Shown here: positions 4,019 to 27,195 of the stretch, piece by piece
How the letters are laid out: every line of letters begins with the position of its first letter
Position numbering within the stretch: the first letter of the stretch is position 1
From: Paenibacillus sp. FSL H8-0079
Lineage (GTDB): Bacteria > Bacillota > Bacilli > Paenibacillales > Paenibacillaceae
Reading direction: 5' to 3'
Length of the DNA: 64,000 nucleotides
Assembly (NCBI RefSeq): GCF_037991315.1
Contig: NZ_CP150300.1
Coordinates: forward strand, 2,356,001 to 2,420,000
Notes under the pieces: generated by a model
The model's database searches: none
What the model was told of the DNA's origin: nothing
The model's input: the letters and a program-made list of their open reading frames with translations, nothing else
Program-made: the position numbers and the translations under genes

Positions 4019-4038
4019 AATGATATAGTAGAAGAAAG

Positions 4039-4060
4039 GACGGTGCCGCAAGGTGCCGTC
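4039..4060 (+). terminator. Hairpin, weak terminator or attenuator
   Basis: A nine-pair stem (GACGGTGCC with GGTGCCGTC, two wobbles) is capped by a GCAA tetraloop. Only TGTTTGTCT follows, so termination is probably partial, allowing read-through from the GH31 gene into the downstream kinase and GH3 genes. Confidence 0.5.
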
Positions 4061-4092
4061 TGTTTGTCTACCATGATAGGAGATTGAATGAA

Positions 4093-5103
4093 ATGAGTAC
4101 AATGAATTCGGGTTTGCACTGCACCATATCGTCAGAGATGCTGCACCACTTGGTGGATAATAATTTTGGAACCGCTACCATTGTGAAGAACTTTGCACTT
4201 CTGCAAGGTGGACTTTTTAATACAACTTATCGGATTCAGCTTGAAAATGCATCATATACGGATGTGATTTTGCGTTTGGCACCACAGCGGGGAGAGATGG
4301 TGGCCGGTTCTGCGAGTGATCCCCTTTTTTCTTTTGAACGCACCATGATGGCGGCTGAACCGGTCGTGTATGAATATTACCGTAACGCAGGCATTCCTGC
4401 TCCAAACATTATAGCCTGTGATGACAGCGGATCAATCATTCCGAGAACGTACATGTTTATGGAGTTTATCCCTAGTAAGCAGCTGGATCATTCATCAATT
4501 TCTGAGACAGACAAGGAGCGATTGTACCATCAGCTTGGCGCCTATACCGCCATCATGCATCAGATCGAGGGTGCATCGTTTGGGTGGCCGCAGGGGGACG
4601 GTTCAATTAAAGGCTCGGATCAATGGTCCGAGGTGCTGCACTCTTTTGCAGAAGAAACGGCACTTAAAGCAGCACAAGCCGAGTATATGCCAGGTGTGGG
4701 GGAGGAAATCACAGCTATCTTTATGAAAAATAAAGACTTATTCGATCAGGTGACCCGTCCGGTACTCGTTCATAATGACCTGTGGGAAGCCAACGTGCTT
4801 GTTCATGAGGAAAACGGTGAGCTAAACATTGCGGCCATCATCGACGGAGATCGTTCCATGTTTGCCGACAGGGAGTTTGAAGCCATATTGTCAACGGAAT
4901 CGGTTGCTTTTCATGAGGGATATAATTGTGCACTCGATCCATCTGCTGAAGGACAGGCACGCAGGCTTGCCTATCGAATACTGTCATCGTATTTCAATGC
5001 TTACGTTCATGAATATCAGGTCAATCAACCTGAAGATGGTCAGAAGTATCGCCAGCGCACGCTGGATTTACTGGAGCAATGGAAGCAACTTGGACACAAC
5101 TAA
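4093..5103 (+). CDS. Aminoglycoside-phosphotransferase-fold kinase of unknown substrate
   Basis: About 336 residues from ATG 4093, which has AGGAG ten bases upstream. An in-frame TTG at 4084 sits too close to that site. The N lobe has LQGGLFNTTYRI and DVILRLAP. The catalytic loop is HNDLWEANVLV with the following IDGDRSMF, i.e. the Brenner HxDxxxxN motif plus the metal-binding aspartate, so it should be active. APH-fold proteins phosphorylate antibiotics, choline, homoserine or sugars. Lying 20 bases upstream of a GH3 gene and behind an alpha-xylosidase, a sugar or glycoside substrate is more likely than an antibiotic. That is inference; no substrate-specific motif is recognised. Confidence 0.8.
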   Translation: MSTMNSGLHCTISSEMLHHLVDNNFGTATIVKNFALLQGGLFNTTYRIQLENASYTDVILRLAPQRGEMVAGSASDPLFSFERTMMAAEPVVYEYYRNAGIPAPNIIACDDSGSIIPRTYMFMEFIPSKQLDHSSISETDKERLYHQLGAYTAIMHQIEGASFGWPQGDGSIKGSDQWSEVLHSFAEETALKAAQAEYMPGVGEEITAIFMKNKDLFDQVTRPVLVHNDLWEANVLVHEENGELNIAAIIDGDRSMFADREFEAILSTESVAFHEGYNCALDPSAEGQARRLAYRILSSYFNAYVHEYQVNQPEDGQKYRQRTLDLLEQWKQLGHN

Positions 5104-8065: not shown

Positions 8066-8082
8066 TTGTAAATATTGAACCA

Positions 8083-8122
8083 AAGGAGCTGTCTTGCACG
8101 AATGCGTGCAGGCGGCTTCTTT
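8083..8122 (+). terminator. Intrinsic terminator after the GH3 gene
   Basis: AAGGAGCTGTCTTGCACG pairs with CGTGCAGGCGGCTTCTTT around an AATG loop, with one bulged base and several wobbles, then TTTGTGTG. It ends the GH31-kinase-GH3 transcript before the MFS gene. Confidence 0.6.
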
Positions 8123-8222
8123 GTGTGAACAAGCGGTAACATCCAACATGTCCTGCATAATCAACCTCCGAAACAAGCACAATAATGCTGTTGTGTGTAG
8201 AATCTGTAAAGGTGGTTGTGGT

Positions 8223-9524
8223 ATGAACGATAAAAAGTGGGACCTTGTCGCACTTGCTTCCATCCCTTTAATTATGACCTTGGGTAACTCCATGCTAATA
8301 CCGATCCTGCCACAGATTGAACGTGAATTGAAGGTATCTGCATTTAAGGTCAGCATGCTCATTACAGTCTACGCCGTCGTTGCCATCCTTCTTATTCCTC
8401 TCGCAGGTTATTTGTCGGATCGTTTCGGCAGAAAAGCAGTGATCATTCCCAGTCTTGTCATTGCAGCCGTCGGAGGTGCTGTGGCTGGTGTGGCAGCATG
8501 GATGCTGAACGGAAACATAGCCTACTGGACCATTCTGGGTGGCAGGTTCTTGCAGGGAATAGGCGCAGCCGGCGCATTTCCTATTGTCATTCCATTGGTT
8601 GGAGATATGTTCAAAGATGAGAACGAGGTAAGTAAAAGCCTGGGAATCATCGAGACCTCGAATACGTTTGGTAAAGTCATAAGTCCGATTCTGGGTGCAG
8701 CGCTGGCGGTCTGGTTGTGGTATGCGCCATTTATGGCTATCCCTGTACTTTGTGTGCTTTCGTTGATCCTGGTTATTTTCTTGGTCAAAACACCCAAGAA
8801 AAAAGAAAAACCGCCTACCTTTACGGAATTCGTGGCTTCCATTCGTGACGTACTGAAAGAAAAGGGACGCTGGTTGTATGCGCTGTTTGCAATCGGCGGT
8901 ATTTGCATGTTTGTCATTTTTGGCGTGCTTTATTACCTATCCGAGACGCTCGAAAGCGAATTTGCCTTGAAAGGTGTTCTTAAAGGGCTTGTTCTTGCTA
9001 TTCCGCTGGCAGCGCTATGTCTGTCTTCATTTCTGGCAGGGAAGTGGATTGGCAAGAACAAAACGCGAATGAAATGGCTTGGCTTCACAGGGCTTGCGCT
9101 TCTGACGGTATCCCTTGGCGTTATAGGTTTATTCGATAATATCTATGTTGTAGTAGGTCTTTTCACATTGGGAAGTGCCGGAATAGGTGCAACGTTGCCG
9201 TGTCTGGACGCCTTGATTACAGAGGGAGTGGACAAGAAACAGCGGGGCACGATCACAGCTCTATTCAGCAGTATGCGCTTCATTGGCGTATCTCTCGGTC
9301 CACCTGTGGTGTCTTTGCTAATTGGATCTCATCATTTTCTGCTTTTTGGTGTGCTCGCCGCTTCTGGTGCAGTGGGCGGATTACTCACTTTGTTCGCAGT
9401 CAAGCCAGATCACGGCGACCAACCTACTTCAGGAAGCGAGCCAAAACAGGATGAAACACCTATGGATGTGATCGAGACGAGTAGAGGGTATGCTCCAATA
9501 GGTCGCAAAAAAAGTCCATTCTAG
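8223..9524 (+). CDS. MFS drug-exporter-type permease
   Basis: 433 residues from ATG 8223, chosen because AAAGGTGG lies seven bases upstream; the frame is open 43 codons further but that stretch overlaps the preceding hairpin and has no membrane signal. Twelve hydrophobic segments are visible. The MFS signature LAGYLSDRFGRK is in the loop between helices 2 and 3, and ILGGRFLQGIGAAGAFPIV resembles motif C-like helix 5 of drug:proton antiporters. The soluble C-terminal tail of ~45 residues is hydrophilic. Substrate unknown. It stands alone between two terminators. Confidence 0.88.
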   Translation: MNDKKWDLVALASIPLIMTLGNSMLIPILPQIERELKVSAFKVSMLITVYAVVAILLIPLAGYLSDRFGRKAVIIPSLVIAAVGGAVAGVAAWMLNGNIAYWTILGGRFLQGIGAAGAFPIVIPLVGDMFKDENEVSKSLGIIETSNTFGKVISPILGAALAVWLWYAPFMAIPVLCVLSLILVIFLVKTPKKKEKPPTFTEFVASIRDVLKEKGRWLYALFAIGGICMFVIFGVLYYLSETLESEFALKGVLKGLVLAIPLAALCLSSFLAGKWIGKNKTRMKWLGFTGLALLTVSLGVIGLFDNIYVVVGLFTLGSAGIGATLPCLDALITEGVDKKQRGTITALFSSMRFIGVSLGPPVVSLLIGSHHFLLFGVLAASGAVGGLLTLFAVKPDHGDQPTSGSEPKQDETPMDVIETSRGYAPIGRKKSPF

Positions 9525-9600
9525 ATAGAAGGTTTCTGATAAGCCATGTTCATTCCAATGTTGCCTTAAGGTTAAACAACCGAATCTGTTCCGATAAAAA

Positions 9601-9656
9601 AACGCGTTTACGCCAAAGAAAGCAGATATTTTTGCTTTCTCGGTGTAAACGCGTTT
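9601..9656. terminator. Strong bidirectional terminator between convergent MFS genes
   Basis: AACGCGTTTAC (9601-9611) pairs with GTAAACGCGTT (9645-9655), and AGAAAGCA (9617-9624) with TGCTTTCT (9633-9640). An A tract precedes and a T-rich tract follows, so both convergent genes can use it. Confidence 0.85.
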
Positions 9657-9686
9657 CTCGTTTCTATGAGTAGAATGATTAACCAA

Positions 9687-11033
9687 TCATTCGTGTCTGC
9701 TTTTATTCGGATGGCTCCCTTCAGTGTTGCTGGTTCCAGATTGTGAATTCTTGGATTGATCTTGGTCTGGCTCATGTTCCGTTGCAGGGATATGAGTATG
9801 AGCGAGCAGTGCATGAGGTTCAATGGAGAAGCTGCCGCTTCGTTTGCCCTGAATCAGATATATAAGCAAGAACAGAATCATGAACATCACGGAGTAACGA
9901 TACATATCGGTATAACTGGTTATGGACGCAATGGCACCGAGCAGAAGTGCGCCAGTTGCAATACCCAGATCGAGCGAGTTTAGAAACATACCGTTAGCCA
10001 TACCCCGCTGAGAAGGAGATACAACCTGAATCATCCAGGTCTGCAGAGACGACTGCATGGAACCATAGCCAATCCCGTAGATAAAAGCAGCAATGAACAG
10101 GGTGGACATGGAGGTTGCGTATGAGAGCAGAATGAGCCCGATAGCAATAAATATGGCCCCTGGAATTAACAGTGCTTTTGGACCTTTGTTATCATAGATT
10201 CGTCCTGCAAATGGTCTAACCAGTAGCACAGCGAGTGCATTGAACAAAAAGAACAGCGCAGGATTGGCCAGATTGGCCTCCTTACCATACAAGACGATGA
10301 ATCCGACAAGCCCGCCATAGGTGATGGACAAAAGGCAATTCAACACACTGGGCAGAATCAGCTTGCGGTTGAAAGGCGTCTTCTGCTTTGGTTGCGAACC
10401 TGAGGCACTTGCTGTAGCCTGTGGCATAATGGTCGCACTGTTATCGGTTCTGGCAGCTTTTTTGCGTGTCAGCGTATAACTCAGTGGATAGATGACAACG
10501 AGGACACCCGCAGTACATAACATCAGGGTTATGAATCCTGCACCCTGGAGCAGAGTGACCCCTATAATTGGACCCATAGACATAGCCAAGCTAGTCGAGA
10601 GCCCGAAGTAACCCATACCTTCACCCATTCGTTTAACGGGCACAATGTCCGAGGCCATCGTTGGAAAAGCGGTACTACTCATACCAAACCCGATACCAAA
10701 CAACATTCTCAGCAACAAGAGCACAGCTATACCCGCAGCAAAATAATAGCCGAGCGTTGCCAGCAGGGCTATGGACAGGCCTATATAAATCATGGCGTTA
10801 CGAAGGCCCTTCTCTAGTGCTTTGGCGGAATAAAGACGGGCTGCAATGGCACTTAGTGCAAACAGACAGGTGAAGAGACTGACCTCAAACGCATTCGCGT
10901 GAAATCGTTCCTGAACGTAGGACGGAAGTGGAGAGACGATCATGTGCAGCTGCAAGAATAGCAAAAAGTTGCACAGCATTAGCAGAATAAAATCGGTGGT
11001 CCAGAGTCTAACTTGTGTGGATTGTTCTTTCAT
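9687..11033 (-). CDS. MFS transporter under MarR control
   Basis: 448 residues with twelve predicted membrane segments and a cytoplasmic Gln/Ser-rich loop in the middle (about residues 200-220). The C-terminal ~45 residues are hydrophilic and rich in Asp, Gln and Ser. RLLFGIGFGMSSTAFPTMASD-like and GYGSMQSSLQTW segments fit drug or metabolite exporters of the MFS. The start ATG at 11033 has GGGGG upstream. It lies 30 bases downstream of a MarR gene on the same strand, so both probably form one operon induced when MarR binds the exported compound. The substrate is unknown. Confidence 0.88.
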   Translation of the reverse strand: MKEQSTQVRLWTTDFILLMLCNFLLFLQLHMIVSPLPSYVQERFHANAFEVSLFTCLFALSAIAARLYSAKALEKGLRNAMIYIGLSIALLATLGYYFAAGIAVLLLLRMLFGIGFGMSSTAFPTMASDIVPVKRMGEGMGYFGLSTSLAMSMGPIIGVTLLQGAGFITLMLCTAGVLVVIYPLSYTLTRKKAARTDNSATIMPQATASASGSQPKQKTPFNRKLILPSVLNCLLSITYGGLVGFIVLYGKEANLANPALFFLFNALAVLLVRPFAGRIYDNKGPKALLIPGAIFIAIGLILLSYATSMSTLFIAAFIYGIGYGSMQSSLQTWMIQVVSPSQRGMANGMFLNSLDLGIATGALLLGAIASITSYTDMYRYSVMFMILFLLIYLIQGKRSGSFSIEPHALLAHTHIPATEHEPDQDQSKNSQSGTSNTEGSHPNKSRHE

Positions 11034-13821: not shown

Positions 13822-16800
13822 TTACTCCATTGCTGTAGAAGTGCCGTTATGGCGCCGGATTGCAGACGGGAAATATCCAATCTGAACGGCGTAGTCTAAC
13901 ATGGCGGAGATGAAGCGATCATCTGTTTTCGCACATGAGATTCCGGCAGGTTCCACATAAGCCGTTGTGACAGGGCAGGCATAGACATAAGCTGAATCCT
14001 TGGCTCCGTCTCCTTCAAGCTGTGCAATAGCCAACTGAAGAGCTTCCGGTTCTTTGCTGATGCTAGCATCGAATAACCAACGTGTGTAATCCGCGATAGG
14101 TAGCGTTTCGACTTCATAACCAGCCCGATTCACCGAACGGATCAGCTCATCATAGCGGATTGGCTCCGGATTACAGATGTGGAATACACGACCGGCTGTA
14201 TCCTGACGCAAGGCCAGATGAACAATGGCTTCACTTGCATAATCGATAGGTGTAAAATCAACCATCCAATCAGCAGCAGGCGCCTTGCCGAGCAATAACA
14301 TCGCTTTGAACATACGATAGAAGGCGTTGCTATCAATATTGGACTGGAAGCGTCCAGTCTCAGAGTGACACGTGAGATTACCTGCACGATAGATGCTGAC
14401 AGGTACCCCTTCCTCTGCCGCAATCATGAGCACTTTCTCGGCTTCAAGCTTGCTGTCCGAATACAGGTTGTCCACATGCAAGTCAGCCGGGAACCGATCA
14501 TATTGCAGTGAGGATTCCCATTGTCCGCTGAGTGCGAGATCTTCCGGAATACCCATCGTGGATACATGGTGGAAGGAAGCCCCTGGTTTGCTGCGAATCA
14601 GTTCCAACAATGCGACTGTTCCTGCCACGTTCGTTTTGGCGAACTGCTCGGCATCCCCAAAATGACGTACGTCTGCAGCACAGTGGATGACACGGTCAAT
14701 TCGTTCCTGGACATAAGCCGTTTGTTCAGCCGACAGACCGAGATTAGGTTGTTCGAGATCCCCTTCAATAATCTCCACGCGAGCCGCGAGTTGATCAGTC
14801 AGTTGTTTGCCGAAATATCCTTCCAGCACTTTAGTCAAACGTTCCATTGCAGTTATTCCATTGGATGGTCGACGAACAAGGGCGTAGATTCGTGTACTGG
14901 AATTCAGAATTAACTGTTGCAGCACATGAGAGCCCAGATAACCAGTTGCTCCGGTCAGTAACACATGCTCAGCTTCACGAATGAGCGGATACCCCAACTG
15001 GGGTGTTAGCTCCACAGGGTGTTCGGATAATTGTGTAATCATGCCATCCGTCACTGCCGAATGTGTAACTTCTGCTGCACTTTGAGATAGTACTTCCACG
15101 CGACGAGCGAGAGCACGGACTGTTTTCTCAGCAAAGAAGTCGGCAATTTTCAGCTGTGGATAATACGGCTTCAGAATGACCAGTACATGAATGACCCGGA
15201 GAGAATCACCACCTACATTGAAGAAGCTGTCTTCGACACCGAAGTCATCGTGCTGAAGAATTTCTTTCCATGCGTCCAGGATAATGGATTCCGTTTCCGT
15301 CTCAGGCATGACCCGATCAGGGCGATCTTCATGTCGTTCCACATGAGGCAGGGATACCATCGCTTTGCGATTGATTTTCCCAGTCGGAGCAATCGGCATT
15401 TCATCCAGCTGACAGATCCACTTTGGTACAAAATAGGAAGGCAGTTTTTCTGTCAATTCTGCCTTGATATCCGCAACAGATAGGGTACTGCCATCTTTCG
15501 ATGTAAAGTAACCCACCAGCATATTTTGTCCGTCGGATTCTTTCTTCGGAATGACGGCAACGTTCTGGATCTGATCCAGGCGAGCAAAGTGATCTTCAAT
15601 CTCTCCGATCTCAATCCGGTGACCACGAATTTTTAGCTGTGAGTCACTGCGACCGACATATTCCAGTAACCCCGTGTCCAGCAATTTGGCAATATCGCCA
15701 GACTTGTAGATTTTCTCACCTATCGCAAACGGATTCTCAATGAATGCTTGTTCTGTTCGTTCTGGCTGATTCAGATAACCTTTGGCCAGTGCAGGGGTAG
15801 AAATATATACCTCACCAGGTACACCTACCGGACAGAGCTGATGTTCTTCATTCACAATGTATACTTTGTAGTTATGAATCGGTTTACCGATAGGGATATT
15901 CACTACATGTTCGGGAACTTGCTCACTGATGCGGTGAGTGGCTGTGGCTACTGTACATTCGGTAGGTCCGTACACATTAACAATATCAATCTGGTTTCCG
16001 AATTTGCGCTGGAAGGCACGAACCTGTTCACCATAGAGAGCTTCTCCGGCTACAGTAATGATTCTGACTTTGGCCAACTTGTGGAAACCTTCTTCAGATA
16101 AGTAGGAAGCGAGCTGATTAAAGAAAATCGTAGGCAGTATTGTAATGATGGTTGTTCCTGTCCGTTCAATTGCACTTGCGAATTCTTCAACAGATACGCG
16201 TTCTTCCGCAGACAACAGATATAATTCTGCTCCATAGAACAAGGCGCCAATGGTATCCCACACGGATGCATCGAAGCTGTATGTAGCAAACTGGGTTAAC
16301 ACATCACCTGGTTGAATGTCACAATCACGCTGAACGACACTGCCAAGATTGGTTACACCCCGATGGGCAATCAGCGCACCTTTGGGCTTACCTGTTGACC
16401 CTGACGTATAGATGATATACGCAAGATCATCTGGCTGAATATCGAGATTGGGGTTGCTTGCTGCAAATCCGGCTAGACGACCATCCACAGCGAGAATCTG
16501 GCGGACAGTAGCTATACTGGAGAACAAGCTGGAAGCTTGGTCATAAGAAGCCTCCGTTGTCAGAACGAATGATGACGCCGTATCTTCCACAATATAGCTG
16601 TTACGTTCTTGTGGATGCTCTGGGTCGATCGGAACATATGCACCACCTGCCTTTAGAATACCGAGCAGGGAGATGATGGTTTCCAGACTTCGATCCATAA
16701 AGATACTGACGAATTCACCTTTTTGCAATCCATTGGATATTAGAACACGTGCAACCTGATTAGCTCTTTCATTCAATTCTCTGTACGTATAACGTGCGGA

Positions 16801-17529
16801 TGGCGAGGTAATCGCCGGTGAATCCGGATATGCTGCCGCCGTTGCTTCAAACCAGCCGTGAACCGTCTGATTCGCTGGTTCGAGAACGGAAGTATCATTC
16901 ATTTCACGGTACAGCAACCGATCAGAGGCGGAAAGAATATCCACCGCACCGATTGCTTTTTCACCGTCACGCAAGAGGGCAAGTAGAAGAGTCTGATAGT
17001 ATTCTGCATATCTCAACACGGTAGACTCTTTCAACAGTGAACTGTCATAGAACAGATCGAGAATGAGCATGTTCTGGTCATCTCGAACGTTCCAATTCAA
17101 TATTTGAGGCGCTTGAGGCAACTGTACGCTATTCAGCATAAACAACGTTTCAGGATATCCACCGGTTTGCAGCGTGTAGTCAATCTTGAGCTGCTCTGAA
17201 ACCTGATGACATAGTTCGCCAAAGGTCAATTTGCCTTGAATCTGTAATGAGAGATAGGAAGCTGCCTGATCGGGAGCTAGTACACCTATGGCAAGTTCCT
17301 GTTCAGCTGACAATCGGAATAACAAGGCTGCATAAGCTGAGAGGAGTACCGGGTACACCATCTGTTCTCCAAACTTCTGTTTAAGATCACGACTCAGAGA
17401 AGCATGTAATGTAATTTGAGCAGATTGATAAGAGAATGATTGTTGACGTCGCCCAAAATCCAGTGGAATCTGCAGAACCGGCAAGCTAGATTCCATGGAA
17501 TGGGAAGATGATGATTGGTTTTCAATCAC
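13822..17529 (-). CDS. NRPS-like protein: condensation remnant, adenylation, carrier and thioester reductase domains
   Basis: 1235 residues from GTG 17529. AAGGAGG eleven bases upstream of that GTG decides the start; the in-frame TTG at 17553 would place this site inside the gene. Residues 1-205 resemble the C-terminal half of a condensation domain but lack HHxxxDG. The adenylation domain (about 210-705) has YIIYTSGSTGKPKG, NVYGPTEC, YKSGD and GKINRK. The eight pocket residues read by eye are D-A-W-T-T-A-V-V-A, which I cannot assign to an amino acid. The carrier motif GGDSL has its serine near 776. The reductase domain (about 850-1205) has the NADPH loop TGATGYLG and YSDSK as YxxxK. Such proteins activate an acid and release it as aldehyde or alcohol. 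The MCP gene lies 46 bases upstream on the same strand. Confidence 0.88.
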   Translation of the reverse strand: MIENQSSSSHSMESSLPVLQIPLDFGRRQQSFSYQSAQITLHASLSRDLKQKFGEQMVYPVLLSAYAALLFRLSAEQELAIGVLAPDQAASYLSLQIQGKLTFGELCHQVSEQLKIDYTLQTGGYPETLFMLNSVQLPQAPQILNWNVRDDQNMLILDLFYDSSLLKESTVLRYAEYYQTLLLALLRDGEKAIGAVDILSASDRLLYREMNDTSVLEPANQTVHGWFEATAAAYPDSPAITSPSARYTYRELNERANQVARVLISNGLQKGEFVSIFMDRSLETIISLLGILKAGGAYVPIDPEHPQERNSYIVEDTASSFVLTTEASYDQASSLFSSIATVRQILAVDGRLAGFAASNPNLDIQPDDLAYIIYTSGSTGKPKGALIAHRGVTNLGSVVQRDCDIQPGDVLTQFATYSFDASVWDTIGALFYGAELYLLSAEERVSVEEFASAIERTGTTIITILPTIFFNQLASYLSEEGFHKLAKVRIITVAGEALYGEQVRAFQRKFGNQIDIVNVYGPTECTVATATHRISEQVPEHVVNIPIGKPIHNYKVYIVNEEHQLCPVGVPGEVYISTPALAKGYLNQPERTEQAFIENPFAIGEKIYKSGDIAKLLDTGLLEYVGRSDSQLKIRGHRIEIGEIEDHFARLDQIQNVAVIPKKESDGQNMLVGYFTSKDGSTLSVADIKAELTEKLPSYFVPKWICQLDEMPIAPTGKINRKAMVSLPHVERHEDRPDRVMPETETESIILDAWKEILQHDDFGVEDSFFNVGGDSLRVIHVLVILKPYYPQLKIADFFAEKTVRALARRVEVLSQSAAEVTHSAVTDGMITQLSEHPVELTPQLGYPLIREAEHVLLTGATGYLGSHVLQQLILNSSTRIYALVRRPSNGITAMERLTKVLEGYFGKQLTDQLAARVEIIEGDLEQPNLGLSAEQTAYVQERIDRVIHCAADVRHFGDAEQFAKTNVAGTVALLELIRSKPGASFHHVSTMGIPEDLALSGQWESSLQYDRFPADLHVDNLYSDSKLEAEKVLMIAAEEGVPVSIYRAGNLTCHSETGRFQSNIDSNAFYRMFKAMLLLGKAPAADWMVDFTPIDYASEAIVHLALRQDTAGRVFHICNPEPIRYDELIRSVNRAGYEVETLPIADYTRWLFDASISKEPEALQLAIAQLEGDGAKDSAYVYACPVTTAYVEPAGISCAKTDDRFISAMLDYAVQIGYFPSAIRRHNGTSTAME

Positions 17530-17575
17530 TTCAGTTATTCCTCCTTGGTTCAAACCGAATGTTTGTGGATTTGAA

Positions 17576-19342: not shown

Positions 19343-19828
19343 TAAATTCCACTCCTGATCTTCTTTAAATTAAGAAACTTTAGGGTTGCTTTGGTACAGT
19401 GAACTAGATCATTCCGTTATCCCCTCCAAAGGAAATTTATGCGACCATGGTCTTGGTTTATTAGTCGCTTTCGTAGAGACTTATGTACCGTATGAACCAT
19501 AGGTGTCTAATTATTAAAACACATCTATAATTAATATGTCGTATAAAATGTCGTTAAATTGAATAGTATCGTTAAATTTTTTTTAATATTTTACGTATTT
19601 ATGGACATATCTGATGAATTATAGGTATTTAGAACTGTTTATTTAAAAATTTCCCATTTTTTAGCTTCATTCTGTATTCTATAACATGGTGGGCAAAAAT
19701 ACATCCTTAAACATTGGAAAAAATAAGATCAAAGATGCAACATAAGGCACGGATATACATCGGAAGCGGTTTTATCTATAATAACTACATATGCATTTCT
19801 CAAATTATGAGCAGGCGGGGGTTTATAG
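19343..19828. other. 486-base divergent intergenic region, AT-rich
   Basis: It separates the MCP gene (minus) from rpiA (plus). The MCP-proximal half contains short complementary segments on the minus strand (GCGAC with GTCGC, and the palindrome ACCATGGT at 19444-19451), so a structured leader is possible, but it matches no riboswitch consensus I know. The middle (about 19515-19680) is almost only A and T. A TATAAT-like box (TATAATAAC near 19776) precedes rpiA. No open reading frame of interest. Confidence 0.4.
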
Positions 19829-20500
19829 ATGAATCTTAAACAAATAGCAGCGGAGCGTGCGGCAGAATATGTTGAAGATGGGATGAAGGTTGGATTAGGT
19901 ACAGGTTCAACAGCTTATTATGCCATCTGCCGAATCGGTGAGCGGGTACGCGATGGATTGAATATTCAAGCGGTTGCCACTTCGGAAGCTTCGGACAAGC
20001 TTGCTCGGGAATGGGGTATTCCCATCGTTCCATTTGACCAGATTGGACGTCTGGATCTGACCATTGATGGCGCAGATGAAGTAGATCCCGAATTTAACCT
20101 GATTAAAGGTGGCGGCGGGGCTCTTTTGCGTGAAAAAATCGTGGCGGCCAATAGTGACAAACTGATTATTGTAGCGGATGGCAGCAAATCAGTGCAAAAG
20201 TTGGGTGAATTCCCGTTGCCAGTTGAGGTTGTTCCATTTGCTTCAGAGTGGACCTACCAGGCGCTCGAAAAACTGGGGTGTCGACCACAGTGGCGCATGG
20301 ATGGAGAGCAGCGTTATCTGACAGACAACGGAAACCTGATTGCGGATTGCCACATGGAAGTGATTGATCATGCTGCAGAACTGAATGTTCAATTGAACAT
20401 GTTACCAGGTGTTGTTGATAACGGACTATTTGTGGATATGGCTAGCACAGTCATTCTTGCCAATGCAGACGGAAGTATCGAAGAGCTTCATCGTTCTTAA
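19829..20500 (+). CDS. rpiA: Ribose-5-phosphate isomerase A
   Basis: 223 residues, the normal RpiA length. It interconverts ribose 5-phosphate and ribulose 5-phosphate in the pentose phosphate pathway. Seen motifs: GLGTGSTAYYAI (phosphate binding), TIDGADEVDPEFNLIKGGGGALLREKI (active-site loop, split here as DGADEVD and KGGGGALLREK) and GVVDNGLFVDMA near the end. ATG at 19829 is preceded by GCGGGGGTT. It is followed at once by the remnant of an acetyltransferase in a different frame; the RpiA C-terminus itself looks intact. Confidence 0.95.
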   Translation: MNLKQIAAERAAEYVEDGMKVGLGTGSTAYYAICRIGERVRDGLNIQAVATSEASDKLAREWGIPIVPFDQIGRLDLTIDGADEVDPEFNLIKGGGGALLREKIVAANSDKLIIVADGSKSVQKLGEFPLPVEVVPFASEWTYQALEKLGCRPQWRMDGEQRYLTDNGNLIADCHMEVIDHAAELNVQLNMLPGVVDNGLFVDMASTVILANADGSIEELHRS

Positions 20501-20502
20501 AA

Positions 20503-20712
20503 TGGAAGAGGGTTCGGGTTGGACTGACCACATGGTCTGGCAATGAACGAATGATGCGTTCGGCTGCAAAAGCCGGATTACAGGTGGAGGGGCGAATGCG
20601 GAAGTGTCGTATCGTTCGCGGGGAGTACTATGATTCAATTCGTATGGGAATGCTTCGCGAGGAGTGGGAGCAGAAGCTGTCCTCTAATGCGAGCCGAAAT
20701 GTAAACAACTGA
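20503..20712 (+). pseudogene. C-terminal remnant of a GNAT acetyltransferase
   Basis: Directly after the rpiA stop, in the +1-shifted frame, about 70 codons read WKRVRVGLTTWSGNERMM, RSAAKAGLQVEGRMR and YYDSIRMGMLREEWE, ending at TGA 20710-20712. This is the familiar C-terminal part of RimJ/RimL-type acetyltransferases (the 'NERxxRxxxKxGF xxEG' and 'DxxxMGxLxxEW' blocks). There is no in-frame start with a ribosome site before it and the acetyl-CoA loop is missing. A deletion that fused the 3' end of a GNAT gene to the rpiA terminus explains it best. Confidence 0.75.
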
Positions 20713-20727
20713 TGGAGGATTATTGAA

Positions 20728-21189
20728 ATGCTGAACACGGAGGACAACCGGGAACTGTCTTTACAATTATTCGTGGTTCTTGTTCGAGCCTACAATTCTG
20801 TGACCTCACGTTCCAATCGGGACATCCAGAGTCACGGACTGAATACGACAGAATTTGGTGTACTTGATTTGTTATATCATAAGGGACCGCAGGCTTTGCA
20901 AAAGATCGGTGAAAAGGTGTTAATGTCCAGTGGTAATATTACGTATGTTGTAGATAAGTTGCAAAATAAAAATCTGCTGTTTCGTCGGCCATCCAAGGAA
21001 GATCGGCGTGTTATTTACGCTGAATTAACCGAGGAAGGAAGGCAACTGTTCACAGAGATATTTCCTCAACATCATCAGGTCATTATTGATGCTTTGGAGG
21101 GACTTGATCCTTCCGAGAAAGTGGATGCGATTAAGATGTTGAAGAAACTGGGACTGGCTGCAGAAGGGAAAACTGACTTGCGTTCTTAA
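20728..21189 (+). CDS. MarR-family transcriptional regulator
   Basis: 153 residues; ATG 20728 follows ATGGAGGATTATTGAA. Winged-helix motifs are clear: LNTTEFGVLDLLYHKG, QKIGEKVLMSSGNITYVVDKL (recognition helix) and PSKEDRRVIYAELTEEG (wing with the DRR motif). This subtype, without cysteine near the N-terminus, is like the HosA/SlyA or YkvE type of Bacillus. No transporter or enzyme gene follows in the same transcript; a terminator overlaps its last codons. Its targets are therefore elsewhere or the B12 sensor genes downstream; ligand unknown. Confidence 0.9.
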   Translation: MLNTEDNRELSLQLFVVLVRAYNSVTSRSNRDIQSHGLNTTEFGVLDLLYHKGPQALQKIGEKVLMSSGNITYVVDKLQNKNLLFRRPSKEDRRVIYAELTEEGRQLFTEIFPQHHQVIIDALEGLDPSEKVDAIKMLKKLGLAAEGKTDLRS

Positions 21190-21207
21190 CGCAGGTCAGT
21201 TTTTTTT
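21169..21207 (+). terminator. Intrinsic terminator overlapping the end of the MarR gene
   Basis: AAAACTGACTTGCGTT (21169-21184) pairs with AACGCAGGTCAGTT (21188-21201), followed by seven T. The stem includes the last codons of the MarR gene. Confidence 0.88.
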
Positions 21208-21470
21208 ATGAAAATCGAAAGGTGCAGACAAATACTGGCTGAGTGACTTGCACCCTTCTCCATAATATAGGAAGATTATTCTATACATTCATAGCGTAAA
21301 TACATGCTCATTGAAAGTTCATGTATAATGGAATAACTATTAAGGTCGGAATGGATGGATTGGATAAGTAGAGGAACCTATCCCGAATGGAAGTTAGCTA
21401 ACATCGATCTCATTCCAGATTAGTCACGAATGATGAATGAGGTGTGAAGCGGGTAGAGGAGGGGGCGTCT

Positions 21471-22559
21471 ATGAGTCATCAAGAAGCAGGAGAACGTTTA
21501 CTTCAAGAAGCAGGTAATTTGGCTGATAAAATAACGGAGAAACAGTATCTCAGGCAGCCCGATTTACTTGAGCGATTTGGGGAGAACGGAAAAATGCGAA
21601 CCAAACAGGATTCTCAGTACAGCTTGAACTACTTGGCTGAAAGTGCGCTTGTACAGAGTCCTGAACTGTTTACGCATTATATTGCTTGGCTGAAAGTTCT
21701 ACTTAAGGGTTACAAGGTATCGTCAGAAGACTTGGCGATGAATCTCCATCTGATTAAAGAGACATTGGAAGAGGAATTTGACCATCCGTCAAAGGCGTTT
21801 CTGCTCGATTATTTGGAGATGGGAATATATAGAACAACACAAATAGAGCCACAAGCGGGTTACATTAACGAATCCATGCCATATGGAGAGGCCGCACAAT
21901 CGTACTTGCAGTGTTTGCTTGAGAATAAACGGAAAGAAGCCTTCGAGATCATTGAAACTCAGTTAGAAGCCGGAGTGACGATTCGTGATATTTACCGATA
22001 TATCTTTCAGCCCACCCAATACGAAATTGGTCGATTGTGGCAATGCAATCGGATCAGTGTGGGGCAGGAACACTTTTGTACGGCAGCGACCCAATCATTC
22101 ATATCACGTCTCTATTCTTCCTGGTTGATTCATACAGGCCAGGAGAAAAAGCTGGTTGCCACCTGTGTAGGCAGTGAACAACATGAGATCGGACTACGTA
22201 TGCTCACAGATGTGTTCGAGATGGAAGGTTGGGATACGCACTATCTGGGAGCCAATGTTCCCAATGGAAGTGTAGTAGAGGCCATAGAACGCCATCAGGG
22301 CGATATTGTTGCGATCTCTGTTACGATGACGTATCATCTTCATCTGGCGAAAGAGTTGATTTCTCTGATTCGTCATCACCCGGCAACGGCGCATGTGAAG
22401 GTTATGGTAGGGGGATATCCATTTAATATTGATCAGGAGTTGTGGAAAACGATAGGAGCAGATGGTTATGCGCCAGGAGCCGATGAAGCGGTTGCGGTTG
22501 CAGAACAATTGCTGGCTCAGCCAGATACATGTAATCATCTTGATATGGTTAGGGATTAG
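21471..22559 (+). CDS. Cobalamin-binding sensor protein (CarH-like B12 module)
   Basis: 362 residues from ATG 21471, chosen for GAGGAGGGGG just upstream; an in-frame GTG at 21444 lacks such a site. Residues ~45-130 are an all-helical N-terminal domain. Residues ~135-220 are the four-helix B12-binding-2 domain with the W-x9-EH motif (W190, E200, H201) that caps adenosylcobalamin in CarH/LitR photoreceptors. Residues ~225-350 are the Rossmann B12-binding domain: E-x-H-x-x-G with H238 as lower cobalt ligand, then SVTMTYH and VGGYPF. It has no DNA-binding domain. The residue after W190 is Gln, where Thermus CarH has the His that ligates cobalt after photolysis. The hybrid kinase starts 12 bases downstream, so it is the likely signalling partner. 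Confidence 0.87.
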   Translation: MSHQEAGERLLQEAGNLADKITEKQYLRQPDLLERFGENGKMRTKQDSQYSLNYLAESALVQSPELFTHYIAWLKVLLKGYKVSSEDLAMNLHLIKETLEEEFDHPSKAFLLDYLEMGIYRTTQIEPQAGYINESMPYGEAAQSYLQCLLENKRKEAFEIIETQLEAGVTIRDIYRYIFQPTQYEIGRLWQCNRISVGQEHFCTAATQSFISRLYSSWLIHTGQEKKLVATCVGSEQHEIGLRMLTDVFEMEGWDTHYLGANVPNGSVVEAIERHQGDIVAISVTMTYHLHLAKELISLIRHHPATAHVKVMVGGYPFNIDQELWKTIGADGYAPGADEAVAVAEQLLAQPDTCNHLDMVRD

Positions 22560-22571
22560 GAGAGGGATGAT

Positions 22572-24287
22572 GTGTTGTCTAATGAGAACGGAGAGATACA
22601 GAGGCTACGCAGAACGATTGAGCAGTTATCGGATCAGATGATCCGTAGCAGAGAGCAGGAGGAACGGACTCTTGCGGAATTCTCGGATATGAATAATGAA
22701 CTGGTCACACTACAGCGTTTGCTTGCGAAGAACAATAACAGCCTTGAAGCTGCACGTCAGCAAGCAGTAAATGCAGGTGAATCCAAAAGCACATTTATTG
22801 CAGGGATCAGTCATGATTTTCGTACGCCATTAAATGGTATATTGGGGATGGCTGAGATGCTTAAGCTTTCTCCATTGTCTGAAGAACAGGAGAATTCCGT
22901 TTCTGTTATACAGGATGCTGCCAGACTGCTGCTTAAGCTGATTCAGGATCTACTGGATGTGTCCAAACTTGAGGCGGGTCAGATGCAACTTGAACTGGGA
23001 GAAGTGCATCTGCATGAGACGATAAATTATATTGTTCGTTTGCTCGAACCCCAAGTCAGAAAGAATGGAAATCAGTTGTCAATTGATTGTGATCCCAGAA
23101 TCTCTGTCTTACTTGAAGGAGATTCAACGCGAATTACGCAGATTCTAATCAATCTAATTCAGAATGCGAACAAATTCACATCAGAAGGCTCTGTAGGAAT
23201 ACGAGTCGCTCTTGTTAAAGATGATGAGAGTACACAAACGATTCGATTTGAAGTTGAAGACACGGGCATTGGTATTTCGGAAGAAGATCAGACCCGATTA
23301 TTCCAACCCTACATGCAGACCGAACGAGGACGCTCGAGAGAGTATGAAGGAACAGGTCTTGGACTATCAATCTGCAGATCGCTCGTTATCCTAATGGAAG
23401 GTCAGATTGGAGTAGACAGTATAGAGGGTGAAGGATCAACATTCTGGTTCGAACTTGCACTGGGCAAGAAACACGTTAACCAGTCCGTTCACGAGTCTAG
23501 CACATCTTCGTCTCAGCAGATTCAAGACCAGGTTGTGCGTGATGAAGCTCCTTCCGTATCTGTCTTGCTGGCCGATGATAATGTCATTAACCGGCAGCTT
23601 GTGATGTTGCAGCTCAAAAAATTGGGAATAACCCAAGTGGACGCCGTCTCGAATGGGGAAGAGGCAGTAGCCGCTTTTCTTAGCAAAAAATACAGTTTGA
23701 TTCTCATGGACTATATGATGCCATTAATGGACGGCTTGGAAGCAACACGCAAAATCCGTTCGATAGAAATGGATGAAATGCGTCATACCACGCCAATCAT
23801 TGCGATGACTGGAAATGTCATGCAAGGAGAGAAAGACAAGTGTATGGAAGCCGGGATGAATGATTTCATTGGCAAACCGTTCACACTGGAGATTCTAAGT
23901 ACGATGATCCAGAAGTGGCAGCAATCGTCTGAACCGACAGAGGTACTCAATATGAGCATCGTGCATGAGATCGCGGAATTGAACACAGATGGTGATCGTA
24001 CACTCCTCAGTATGTTATTGGACATGTATCGAACTGACACACCTGGCAAGATCGAAGTGCTGCGCAGACATATTGTCACGGGGGACCATTTAGCAGCAAC
24101 CGAGGTAGCCCATGATTTGAAATCAGGGAGTTTGAGTCTGGGGATTCGTTATCTATCGACTTTGTTCGCCCAGATAGAGCAGTTCGCGAAGGAAGAGCAG
24201 TCACGTAAAGCAGAACCGTTGCTTGATGCTTTGCTCCCCGCCTATCAAGCGGCATGTGCTGCGCTGCAACGAGTAAGTAAAGATTGA
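22572..24287 (+). CDS. Soluble hybrid histidine kinase: coiled coil, HisKA, HATPase, receiver, Hpt
   Basis: 571 residues from GTG 22572, with GGAGAGGG upstream overlapping the end of the B12 gene. Residues ~5-70 form a coiled coil without membrane segment or PAS domain. The phospho-accepting histidine is H81 in ISHDFRTPLNG. The ATPase has NLIQNANKFTSEG (N box), DTGIGIS and GTGLGLS. A receiver follows (about 330-450) with LADDN, D380 in LMDYMMP and the lysine in GKPF. A C-terminal Hpt domain has H514 in AHDLKSGSLSLG. It therefore contains a whole His-Asp-His relay but no output domain. With no sensor of its own, the B12 protein encoded just upstream probably supplies the signal. The final response regulator is not in the window. 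Confidence 0.92.
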   Translation: MLSNENGEIQRLRRTIEQLSDQMIRSREQEERTLAEFSDMNNELVTLQRLLAKNNNSLEAARQQAVNAGESKSTFIAGISHDFRTPLNGILGMAEMLKLSPLSEEQENSVSVIQDAARLLLKLIQDLLDVSKLEAGQMQLELGEVHLHETINYIVRLLEPQVRKNGNQLSIDCDPRISVLLEGDSTRITQILINLIQNANKFTSEGSVGIRVALVKDDESTQTIRFEVEDTGIGISEEDQTRLFQPYMQTERGRSREYEGTGLGLSICRSLVILMEGQIGVDSIEGEGSTFWFELALGKKHVNQSVHESSTSSSQQIQDQVVRDEAPSVSVLLADDNVINRQLVMLQLKKLGITQVDAVSNGEEAVAAFLSKKYSLILMDYMMPLMDGLEATRKIRSIEMDEMRHTTPIIAMTGNVMQGEKDKCMEAGMNDFIGKPFTLEILSTMIQKWQQSSEPTEVLNMSIVHEIAELNTDGDRTLLSMLLDMYRTDTPGKIEVLRRHIVTGDHLAATEVAHDLKSGSLSLGIRYLSTLFAQIEQFAKEEQSRKAEPLLDALLPAYQAACAALQRVSKD

Positions 24288-24324
24288 TCACATCTTAATT
24301 AGGAAAGAAAGGTAGGACACGTTC

Positions 24325-25302
24325 ATGTTATTCTACGTATTTGGGGCTCTAGTCCTGATCGTTCTTGCTCTTCTATGGGCAGGTGGGCTCTACTTTTTCA
24401 AAACTGCCATTCGTCGTACGCCCAAAACATTTTTGGTAGACAACCCGAATCTGATGCCTGAGCCAGACAATGAAATTATCAGCAGTGCTGCTGACCTGAA
24501 GTGGCTGGATGCTCAGCCTACAGAAGAGATATCTGTACAATCACATGATGGATTAAAACTGCACGGTACATGGCTTAGTTCCAATAGCGGGTCAGATCAG
24601 ACCGTTATTCTGGCACATGGCTATTCTGGGAAAGGCCGAGAAATGGCTGGTTTTGCCCGATTCTATGCGGAGAAGCATGGATATAACGTGTTAATGCCGG
24701 ATGACCGGGGTCATGGACAGAGTGAAGGTGACATCATTGGTTTCGGCTGGTTAGATCGGAAGGATTATGTTCAGTGGACCAACTGGGTGCTTGCAAAAGT
24801 GGGTACACAAGGGGAAATCATATTGCATGGCATATCCATGGGAGGAGCAACCGTACTGATGACAGGTGGTGAATCCCTGCCGATTCAGGTGAAAGCGATT
24901 GTCTCTGATTGTGCGTATACATCTGTGGAAGAAGAACTGACGTTCCAGTTGAAACAATTATACAAGCTTCCTGCATTTCCGTTTATACCTGTCACCAGTC
25001 TAATCTCCAGGTGGAAAGCAGGATATTCCTTCAGGGAGGCATCCGCTCTCAAGCAACTTGCCAAAGTCAACGTGCCTGTGCTGTTCATCCATGGTGAGGC
25101 CGATACGTTCGTACCAACGGAAATGGTGTATAGGTTGTATGAAGCTTGCCCAACCGAAAAGGAATTGCTGACCGTTCCCCATGCGGGTCATGGCACAGCG
25201 TTTCAAGTGGATCGTACCGGATATGAAGCGGTGCTGGAATCCTTCTTAGAAAAGAAACTGTCACCTTCGAGCTTCGTATCCGAAAGTTCAGAAGTTAAGT
25301 GA
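24325..25302 (+). CDS. Alpha/beta hydrolase with N-terminal membrane anchor (YqkD-like)
   Basis: 325 residues. A single hydrophobic helix at residues 3-25 anchors it. The hydrolase domain has VILAHGYSGKG (oxyanion HG), DDRGHGQSEG, the nucleophile elbow HGISMGGATV, FIHGEADTFVPTEM (acid) and PHAGHGTA (histidine). This matches the YqkD/YfhR-type serine hydrolase family of Bacillus, whose substrates are mostly unknown. RBS GAAAGAAAGG is modest. It starts 37 bases after the hybrid kinase gene, so it may be co-transcribed with it. Confidence 0.88.
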   Translation: MLFYVFGALVLIVLALLWAGGLYFFKTAIRRTPKTFLVDNPNLMPEPDNEIISSAADLKWLDAQPTEEISVQSHDGLKLHGTWLSSNSGSDQTVILAHGYSGKGREMAGFARFYAEKHGYNVLMPDDRGHGQSEGDIIGFGWLDRKDYVQWTNWVLAKVGTQGEIILHGISMGGATVLMTGGESLPIQVKAIVSDCAYTSVEEELTFQLKQLYKLPAFPFIPVTSLISRWKAGYSFREASALKQLAKVNVPVLFIHGEADTFVPTEMVYRLYEACPTEKELLTVPHAGHGTAFQVDRTGYEAVLESFLEKKLSPSSFVSESSEVK

Positions 25303-25426
25303 AACTGTGACCTTGAGCCATGCACATCTCTCATGAAAAGGTATGTGGGAATGAAGTGATTCCTGTGTGGCATTTCGGGTATTAAGTAGAAGTGCAGTTG
25401 ATTTTCTAAACGATGGGGGTGTCTTG

Positions 25427-26140
25427 ATGGGCAATGATAAATTTGAGGCTGCGCGAAAAGCAGAGGCAGGTTATCATTCCAACTTCTATCAGAATAATGA
25501 ATTATTCGCCTCCGGCACCTGGATGTCGAGGCCCATGCCTATGGTGATGGATATGCTGGAACGTCTACTTGCTCACAAGCAGGAACTGCATGTTCTCGAT
25601 CTGGGATGCGGAGTCGGGAGACATGCCATACCGATTGCACAGCGTCTTGCCGAGACCAACAGTGAAGTCATCGGTGTGGATTTACTGGATGAGGCGGTAG
25701 ACGGACTTCGCAAGTATGCGAAAGAATATCAGGTCGATCATATCGTGCAGGCAGTAAAAGCAGACGTTGAGCATTATGCTGTTCAGGCAAACTATTTTGA
25801 TTATATTGCTGCTTGTTCTTGTCTGGAGCATGTGTCCAATAAGCAAGCTTTCATTGAAGCACTTGAACGATTACAAGCGGGAACCCAAACAGGTGGTATT
25901 CATTGTATTACGATGAGTACCAATGTGGAAGAAACAGAAATGAACACAGGCCGTGAGATCGATCCGTTAATTGAACTGAACTTGCCGACAGTTGAAGCGA
26001 TCGCTTTGCTGGAGGATGCCTACAAAGGCTGGAATATTCTGCTTCAGGAACATGTTACACAGACGATTGAAGAGGAAAAGTATGATGAACCGACACAATT
26101 TCGTTGTGAACTGCTTCGTTTTGCTGTACAAAAGCAATAA
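25427..26140 (+). CDS. Class I SAM-dependent methyltransferase
   Basis: 237 residues from ATG 25427, which has a G-rich stretch (GATGGGGGTG) upstream; the longer in-frame reading from 25367 adds non-conserved residues. Motif I is HVLDLGCGVGRHAIPIA, with the acidic end of strand 2 in EVIGVDLLDEAV and motif post-I around VKADVEHYA. YDEPTQFRCELLRFAVQKQ-type end resembles TehB/UbiE-like methyltransferases. The substrate is not recognisable. It stands between the hydrolase and an ASKHA kinase in the same direction. Confidence 0.87.
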   Translation: MGNDKFEAARKAEAGYHSNFYQNNELFASGTWMSRPMPMVMDMLERLLAHKQELHVLDLGCGVGRHAIPIAQRLAETNSEVIGVDLLDEAVDGLRKYAKEYQVDHIVQAVKADVEHYAVQANYFDYIAACSCLEHVSNKQAFIEALERLQAGTQTGGIHCITMSTNVEETEMNTGREIDPLIELNLPTVEAIALLEDAYKGWNILLQEHVTQTIEEEKYDEPTQFRCELLRFAVQKQ

Positions 26141-26208
26141 ACTCTCTGCCGGGACCTTACAATGGACCCGGCACTCTTAATGTATGGTCGGAAGGGAGAT
26201 GGTTAAGG

Positions 26209-27195
26209 ATGAATACATATGTAATAGGGATGGATGGAGGAGGGAGCCACACGCGTGTGGCTGTCGCAGATCAGAACGGGAAGATTTTATCCTATGTGCA
26301 AAAGAATGGTTGCAACCGCTATCACGATACCCATGCCGAGCAAAATGTGCTGGAGGGTATCGCTGAAGCTATAACTCAGGCTGGAGTCCAATTAGATCAG
26401 ATCGCTGCCATTCAGGCAGGAATGGCGGGTCTGAATCGGTCTGAAGATACAGTTTGGGCGGAGGCATTACTCGCTCGAACGGGGATTACAGGCAGAATCA
26501 GTGCAGTAAACGATACGCTCATCGCACATACAGCGGCATTCAACGGTGAGCCAGGTATTGTCGCCATTGGAGGTACAGGCTCTCTGATCCTTGGCAGAAC
26601 GGAACAGGGAGCTTGGCTCCGCAACGATCAGTTCGGTCATTATGCGCCGACAGCAGCACGTTTTTTGGCTTACGACACGGTTCATTCCATACTGGCAGGA
26701 CGTTATGAGTCGCAGGATCAAGAATGGATTGAGCAGGTGTTAACGTATTGGCATGTAAGCTCTATTCGAGAGCTTGCTGATCTGGGAGTGTCTGGTTTTG
26801 CTGAAAATAAACAGGCTACCAATCGAAGATTTGGTCAAATGGCACCTTTGGTGACTGAAGCAGCTGCCCGGAATATTCCCCTCGCAGTTAGGGTGTGCGA
26901 CTCGGCTGCTGACACGGCTGTTGTGGGCATCCTGATGCTGGCATCCTGTTTCGATCAGCCAACAGTGTCCATGACGCTTACCGGAAGCTGTCTAAGTTCA
27001 TCATATATGGTGGATGCTGTTCAGAAAGGACTGGATGCTGCCTATAGGCCCAAAGGGAAAAGAATTCAATACATAACCAGTAACTTGCCGGCAGTTGGGG
27101 GCGCACTGCTGGATGCCTATCATTTGGCGCAGATCAACGTATCGGATAACATCTCAACTGTGCTTCAATCGGAGCTGAATCGGCACACGACTTGA
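26209..27195 (+). CDS. BadF/BadG-type ASKHA kinase (N-acetylglucosamine kinase family)
   Basis: 328 residues. The phosphate-1 loop is YVIGMDGGGSHTRVAV; phosphate-2 is in GIVAIGGTGSLILGR; the adenosine region is LTGSCLSSSY. This is the BadF/BadG/BcrA/BcrD ATPase family, which in Firmicutes mostly holds N-acetylglucosamine or related amino-sugar kinases. Length fits. No phosphotransferase, deacetylase or deaminase gene is nearby, so the substrate assignment is from family only. ATG at 26209 follows GGAAGGGAGATGG. Confidence 0.85.
   Translation: MNTYVIGMDGGGSHTRVAVADQNGKILSYVQKNGCNRYHDTHAEQNVLEGIAEAITQAGVQLDQIAAIQAGMAGLNRSEDTVWAEALLARTGITGRISAVNDTLIAHTAAFNGEPGIVAIGGTGSLILGRTEQGAWLRNDQFGHYAPTAARFLAYDTVHSILAGRYESQDQEWIEQVLTYWHVSSIRELADLGVSGFAENKQATNRRFGQMAPLVTEAAARNIPLAVRVCDSAADTAVVGILMLASCFDQPTVSMTLTGSCLSSSYMVDAVQKGLDAAYRPKGKRIQYITSNLPAVGGALLDAYHLAQINVSDNISTVLQSELNRHTT

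Follow-up and report, generated by a model that had tools for sequence, protein, structure and literature searches.

What does a vitamin B12-binding protein sense when its gene stands directly in front of a gene for a soluble hybrid histidine kinase, and how would its signal reach that kinase? Such a pair occupies positions 21,471 to 24,287 of a 64,000-nucleotide stretch of Paenibacillus sp. FSL H8-0079 (contig NZ_CP150300.1, positions 2,356,001 to 2,420,000), the whole of which is called the window here. Judged from its sequence, the 362-residue product of the first gene is a photocobilin in globin-B12 order, predicted to bind adenosylcobalamin (AdoCbl) and biliverdin and to undergo photolysis of the cobalt-carbon (Co-C) bond, and we consider it probable that the two genes specify a phosphorelay under light control that is shared between two soluble proteins, with the photocobilin acting on the N-terminal helix of the kinase. 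A literature search found no published description of a photocobilin-kinase pair, and the terms ‘histidine kinase’ and ‘Paenibacillus’ are absent from the photocobilin paper (PMC10979010).

The initial annotation, made from the letters alone, had described the first product as a CarH-like B12 module. The B12 fold and both motifs that it named are present (W190-x9-E200-H201 and E236-Q-H238-E-I-G241), with matches above the Pfam cut-offs to PF02607 (residues 143-214, 49.1 bits) and PF02310 (residues 227-341, 91.7 bits), and its statement that a DNA-binding domain is lacking agrees with the absence of any MerR-type match at an E value of 0.1 or better. Overlooked, by contrast, were residues 1-125, a phycobilisome-type globin, and because this bilin-type globin lies in the same chain the protein is better read as a photocobilin, the bare CarH module being dropped. 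The best 50 Foldseek matches covered the cobalamin half only, the globin appearing only in the pdb_via rows. For comparison we used SasPcob, a stand-alone photocobilin from Saccharothrix syringae (PDB 8J2W and 8J2X), in which Asp270 contacts biliverdin and Trp296 lies beside bilin ring D (PMC10979010); SasPcob positions are chain numbers plus 5, anchored on Trp61, Glu71-His72 and His108 of the alignments. The corresponding Asp47 and Trp73 of the window protein, as well as W190, E200, H201 and H238, are each invariant in all 76 aligned relatives, whilst at position 44, where the photoglobin CXQD motif (PMC10151467) has its Cys, 35 have Thr, 24 Cys and 17 another residue. Elements of a published light signature (PMC11796333) are found at G187..W190, E200-H201 and G260..P264. 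The second His ligand of CarH (His132 in TtCarH) is absent, and the Gln191 in its place, next to the motif Trp, had been taken as a reason to doubt light sensing. Gln191 is no argument of this kind, since SasPcob also has Gln there (PMC11796333) and is light-active, converting in green light and, with biliverdin bound, in red light too (PMC10979010); light-blindness on this account was dropped, and 71 of the 76 relatives have Gln at the position, with His in five.

The protein might instead belong to a methyltransferase system as its corrinoid protein and lie next to the kinase by accident; the best NCBIfam matches are indeed MtbC and MtgC, with several relatives named methanogenic corrinoid protein MtbC1. 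These matches lie far below their cut-offs (65.8 against 350 and 64.5 against 370 bits), and the MtbC/MtgC identity was rejected; no such methyltransferase partner occurs among the scanned neighbours, the S-adenosylmethionine-type one at 25418 being of another kind, and the globin domain and kinase linkage also argue against this explanation, which we regard as exceedingly improbable.

Conservation of the pair in Paenibacillus, which the initial annotation had set beforehand as a test, was found in a genus sample of 75 genomes. A photocobilin match was present in 53 of these, and in 52 the same strand carries the kinase N-terminus 24-293 bases further downstream, the remaining genome (G029) holding a photocobilin fragment only. 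In a wider set we kept the best 80 of 399 relatives found in genome contigs (L-numbers denote loci, G-numbers genomes and P-numbers proteins), of which 57 come from records labelled Paenibacillaceae or similar (Neobacillus in one case) and 23 from Gammaproteobacteria, Acidobacteriota, Chloroflexota, Desulfobacterota, Verrucomicrobia, Bacteroidota, others and one archaeon. A same-strand kinase open reading frame (ORF) starting at most 600 bases past the photocobilin end was found at 76 of the 80 loci, against a background of 21 of 876 other ORFs at the same loci that have a downstream neighbour. The exceptions are L066, L067, L072 and L082; at L072 Pfam reveals a kinase, bringing the count to 77 of 80, and at L082 a cut photocobilin is followed by unrelated genes. 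Mirror-tree distances over 35 loci (L006, L016, L049, L057 and L060 having been removed beforehand) gave r = 0.945 for photocobilin and kinase, 0.929 for photocobilin and RpiA and a partial correlation of 0.567, a weak signal because all three proteins track the species tree. The archaeal L072 pair (7959-10231) comes from the record of a methanogen, Methanohalophilus euhalobius. Photocobilin genes are broken or survive as remnants in G029, G033, G018, G039, G045, G067 and G068, with the kinase gene open in G068, G045, G033, G018 and G039 and absent around the G029 fragment. A strong kinase N-terminus match without a photocobilin match was seen in five of the 75 genomes, and in three of them (G033, G018 and G039) the remnants lie between a MarR gene and the kinase.

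The two proteins also occur as one chain. The 1281-residue L075 protein combines photocobilin, PAS, HisKA, HATPase, two receivers and Hpt, and when its first 720 residues were used as a query, the best 120 of 7720 proteins included 18 with both B12 domains, 16 of them with HATPase_c as well. D47, W73, W190, E200, H201 and H238 are all kept in 14 of the 16 fusions in an alignment of the first 460 residues; in P0132 no globin aligned, and P0166 is unaligned in that region.

Ahead of its phosphoacceptor domain the window kinase has only a partner helix and no recognisable sensor domain, and a structure model places a single helix (residues 3-98) before the catalytic part (predicted local distance difference test 81, predicted template modelling score 0.43, 18 sequences). 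E36, N41, E43, R49, L51, K53 and L58 (window numbering) are identical in 18 of 18 aligned partner kinases, and the helix has an LNNELxxLQRELAK-like consensus. Outside most Paenibacillaceae it is preceded by a domain of about 110 residues, which had no Pfam match in the six proteins scanned and looks PAS-like, by eye only; the domain recurs before the helix in the partners at L061, L063, L064, L070 and L073, not all five of which were Pfam-scanned. A profile of this module, built from 13 such N-termini, was run against 3410 sequences, made up of 240 proteins and the ORFs from the 80 loci. It matched 75 of the 76 kinases that adjoin a photocobilin, the diguanylate cyclase that follows the photocobilin at L066, a stand-alone 171-residue protein at L067, the archaeal L072 kinase (residues 2-32) and, with the helix placed after the B12 domain, 17 of the 18 B12-bearing chains; the remaining matches were two L075 chains together with P0137, P0142 and P0154, which have the helix and no listed B12 domain. 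Of the 76 adjacent kinases 26 carry the full-length module, namely 7 of the 56 from Paenibacillaceae and 19 of the 20 from other groups, and the partner-kinase motif occurs in 68 of the 76 against none of 24 other kinases at the same loci. In the 75 genomes the kinase N-terminus profile gave weak matches elsewhere in most, which among the matches listed concerned the generic H-box-side end only. The L067 protein (9015-9530), whose gene follows that of a photocobilin, has no output domain of its own.

We searched 22 distant genomes as a whole (that of L054 not being among them). Of the 28 photocobilin matches, 25 had the module fused to them or directly downstream, and of the 30 module matches 25 were beside or in a photocobilin; at least one pair per genome is expected, because the genomes were picked through the 80 loci, and the informative part is therefore how few module matches lie elsewhere. 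Around the five that do, no photocobilin was found in the surrounding 7-8 kb. L105, a kinase, and L106, a GGDEF protein, carry the long module, which is thus not confined to photocobilin neighbourhoods, and the other three match mainly at the generic end. The L106 protein (3134-4144) belongs to the Chloroflexi genome of L068, which also has a second photocobilin without an adjacent partner (L108, 3407-4486), and these two might work in trans.

We infer that the helix is the site at which the photocobilin acts on the kinase, presumably by docking. A photocobilin acting mainly on some other target, with the kinase merely co-transcribed, would suit the action of stand-alone photocobilins on several partners in vitro (PMC10979010) and the three photocobilin matches of the distant genomes, two of them degenerate, that have no adjacent partner module; adjacency across phyla, the fusions and the shared partner helix speak against it, and we hold it to be very unlikely. 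The chances seem about even that the helix of some 30 residues, usually after the 110-residue domain outside Paenibacillaceae, is a dedicated photocobilin output port, connecting the one light sensor to kinases (histidine or hybrid), to diguanylate cyclases or to a stand-alone adaptor, whether the two are encoded by separate genes or joined in a single chain, and that in most Paenibacillaceae it has been cut to the helix alone, leaving the kinase a separate light sensor as its only recognisable input.

In the proposed mechanism AdoCbl would be held by the C-terminal domain of the photocobilin and biliverdin, when available, by the N-terminal globin. Green light absorbed by B12, or red light relayed from biliverdin, would break the Co-C bond, a photolysis proposed here by likeness to SasPcob and CarH, upon which the photocobilin dimer would change and, through protein contact with the N-terminal helix, raise or lower kinase autophosphorylation. 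Phosphate would then pass from the H-box to the receiver, the Hpt domain and a response regulator encoded elsewhere, the presumed target. The kinase was correctly described beforehand as membrane-free, with HisKA, ATPase, receiver and Hpt domains, all of which have Pfam matches, and as starting 12 bases past the B12 gene (GTG at 22572, stop ending at 22559); its maximum 19-residue mean hydropathy is 1.43, that of the photocobilin 1.13, neither having a membrane-like stretch, and its H, N, G1, F, G2, receiver and Hpt motifs are all in place.

The genome could supply both chromophores: it has a single heme oxygenase match, with a phytochrome-GGDEF protein about 1.7 kb away, and a cobalamin adenosyltransferase of the PduO type, and it also contains two cobalamin riboswitches. 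Scored for photocobilin, heme oxygenase and phytochrome in that order, the 75 genomes fall into +++ (30), ++- (13), +-- (10), -++ (6), -+- (2) and --- (14). Photocobilin and heme oxygenase co-occur (43, 10, 8, 14; odds ratio 7.5, p 3e-4), also in the 39 phytochrome-free genomes (13, 10, 2, 14; odds ratio 9.1, p 0.008), both figures ignoring kinship. At L085 (6897-11714) an opposite-strand IS110-type transposase gene lies between the heme oxygenase and phytochrome-GGDEF genes. The second B12 protein of the genome (L002 1369-2328, minus strand; G000:C1:6045602-6046030) is a regulator of the MerR type that has both B12 domains, the motifs W-x9-EH and E-x-H-x-x-G and Glu after the Trp, and is a probable CarH/LitR relative.

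The riboswitches and the adenosyltransferase would equally serve a pair that senses cobalamin status or redox, in which AdoCbl occupancy or upper-ligand exchange sets the kinase and light is incidental. The architecture fits ligand sensing just as well, and the activity of AbDPcob differs in the dark between the apo and AdoCbl-bound forms (PMC10979010). We think this unlikely, as W-x9-EH together with a bilin-type globin bearing invariant D47 and W73 fits light-driven photocobilins, and neither cobalamin genes nor riboswitches were found beside the pair. The interpretation first given, in which the B12 protein is the sensor and the kinase the transmitter of a light, B12 or redox system, is as a whole partly supported.

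Several observations weigh against a light-regulated pair of the kind proposed. Of the four elements in the published light signature GxxH is inexact, with S235 in the place of its Gly; this position is Gly in 32 and Ser in 18 of the 76 relatives, and the published contact there is through the main-chain carbonyl (PMC11796333). No cognate response regulator gene is encoded beside the pair. G031 and G009 retain the kinase with no photocobilin trace, the G031 kinase having an altered G2 box and receiver acid pair (GLALS, AEVN). Finally, ten of the 53 photocobilin genomes have no PF01126 heme oxygenase match, and because the five of these inspected nevertheless keep D47 and W73, biliverdin may not be the ligand there, which weakens a general biliverdin role. 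The same ten genomes favour a green-light sensor working by B12 only, with a globin that is structural or holds another ligand and biliverdin without part in the host, as does AbDPcob, which binds biliverdin poorly yet responds (PMC10979010). Set against this are the heme oxygenase of the host genome, the co-occurrence given above and the key contact Asp, unlike the His of AbPcob, and we find a B12-only sensor possible, if rather doubtful.

The positions of the two genes and their parts are collected in Table 1. The 5′ neighbours of the pair are rpiA and a MarR-type gene, and the 3′ neighbours an alpha/beta hydrolase gene, a methyltransferase-like gene and others. No Rfam family was found within 19500-26500, promoter-like sites near the pair showed no excess (5 against 5.7 in shuffles) and repeats upstream are short and weak only. 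Further off, 13822-17553 (minus strand) encodes a chain of adenylation, carrier and reductase-type NAD-binding domains that also matches a condensation domain in part, and a chemoreceptor gene adjoins.

Table 1. Features of the photocobilin-kinase pair (window positions).
Feature	Position	Strand	Remarks
Photocobilin gene, 362 residues	21471..22559	+	ATG 21471, GGAGG just 5′; order globin, B12 cap, B12 Rossmann
Photoglobin (phycobilisome-type globin), residues 1-125	21471..21845	+	
Asp47	21609..21611	+	aligns to SasPcob biliverdin contact Asp270
Trp73	21687..21689	+	aligns to SasPcob Trp296, beside bilin ring D
Cobalamin-binding domain, residues 136-353	21876..22529	+	
W190-x9-E200-H201, adenosyl-pocket motif	22038..22073	+	Gln191 at TtCarH His132 position
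E-x-H238-x-x-G, lower-ligand motif (E236-Q-H238-E-I-G241)	22176..22193	+	
Soluble hybrid histidine kinase with Hpt, 571 residues	22572..24287	+	GTG start, 12 bases past photocobilin stop
Conserved partner helix of kinase, residues 30-58 (EERTLAEFSDMNNELVTLQRLLAKNNNSL)	22659..22745	+	kinase alignments; common to photocobilin-associated outputs
HisKA, residues 71-136	22782..22979	+	Pfam, above cut-off
HATPase_c, residues 183-297	23118..23462	+	Pfam, above cut-off
Receiver (Response_reg), residues 331-446	23562..23909	+	Pfam, above cut-off
Hpt, residues 482-562	24015..24257	+	Pfam, above cut-off

In 2024 photocobilins were reported to steer a diguanylate cyclase in vitro, with the action of the stand-alone ones left open (PMC10979010). 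The conserved pair, with the shared helix as candidate contact site, makes such action testable with two small soluble proteins, and does so in bacteria without a known need for photosynthesis. If the proposal is true, phosphorelays would gain a green/red light input and optogenetic design a modular contact element.

A literature search found no precedent for the shared partner helix, and the globin-B12 order and links of photoglobins to signalling are known in outline. Schneider et al. in 2022 reportedly predicted that photoglobin and B12 domains, coupled to each other, form light sensors tied to signalling domains. BBAG-2 globins, of a related lineage, bind biliverdin and sit with B12 proteins and heme oxygenase, the globin and B12 protein there being separate genes (PMC10151467). 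With the CarH/LitR repressors the window protein shares the cobalamin fold and the W-x9-EH and E-x-H motifs, and it differs in having no MerR DNA-binding domain, no bis-His ligand and a kinase output. Like SasPcob it joins a CarH-type cobalamin domain to a bilin globin, with the same W, EH and H residues, Gln after the Trp and Asp and Trp bilin contacts; unlike SasPcob it has the globin first, the AdoCbl domain lying at either end among family members (PMC10979010), and its partner is an adjacent hybrid kinase. AbPcob, which has His at the Asp270 position and binds biliverdin weakly, and SasPcob both alter diguanylate cyclase in trans (PMC10979010). AbDPcob, a photocobilin-diguanylate cyclase fusion (PDB 8J2Y being the isolated sensor), resembles the present pair in that a photocobilin would govern an enzyme output, whereas it is fused, acts through cyclic di-GMP, has His at the Asp270 position and, although a poor binder of biliverdin, is light-responsive (PMC10979010); L066, with its cyclase as a separate downstream protein, is the two-gene counterpart of AbDPcob.
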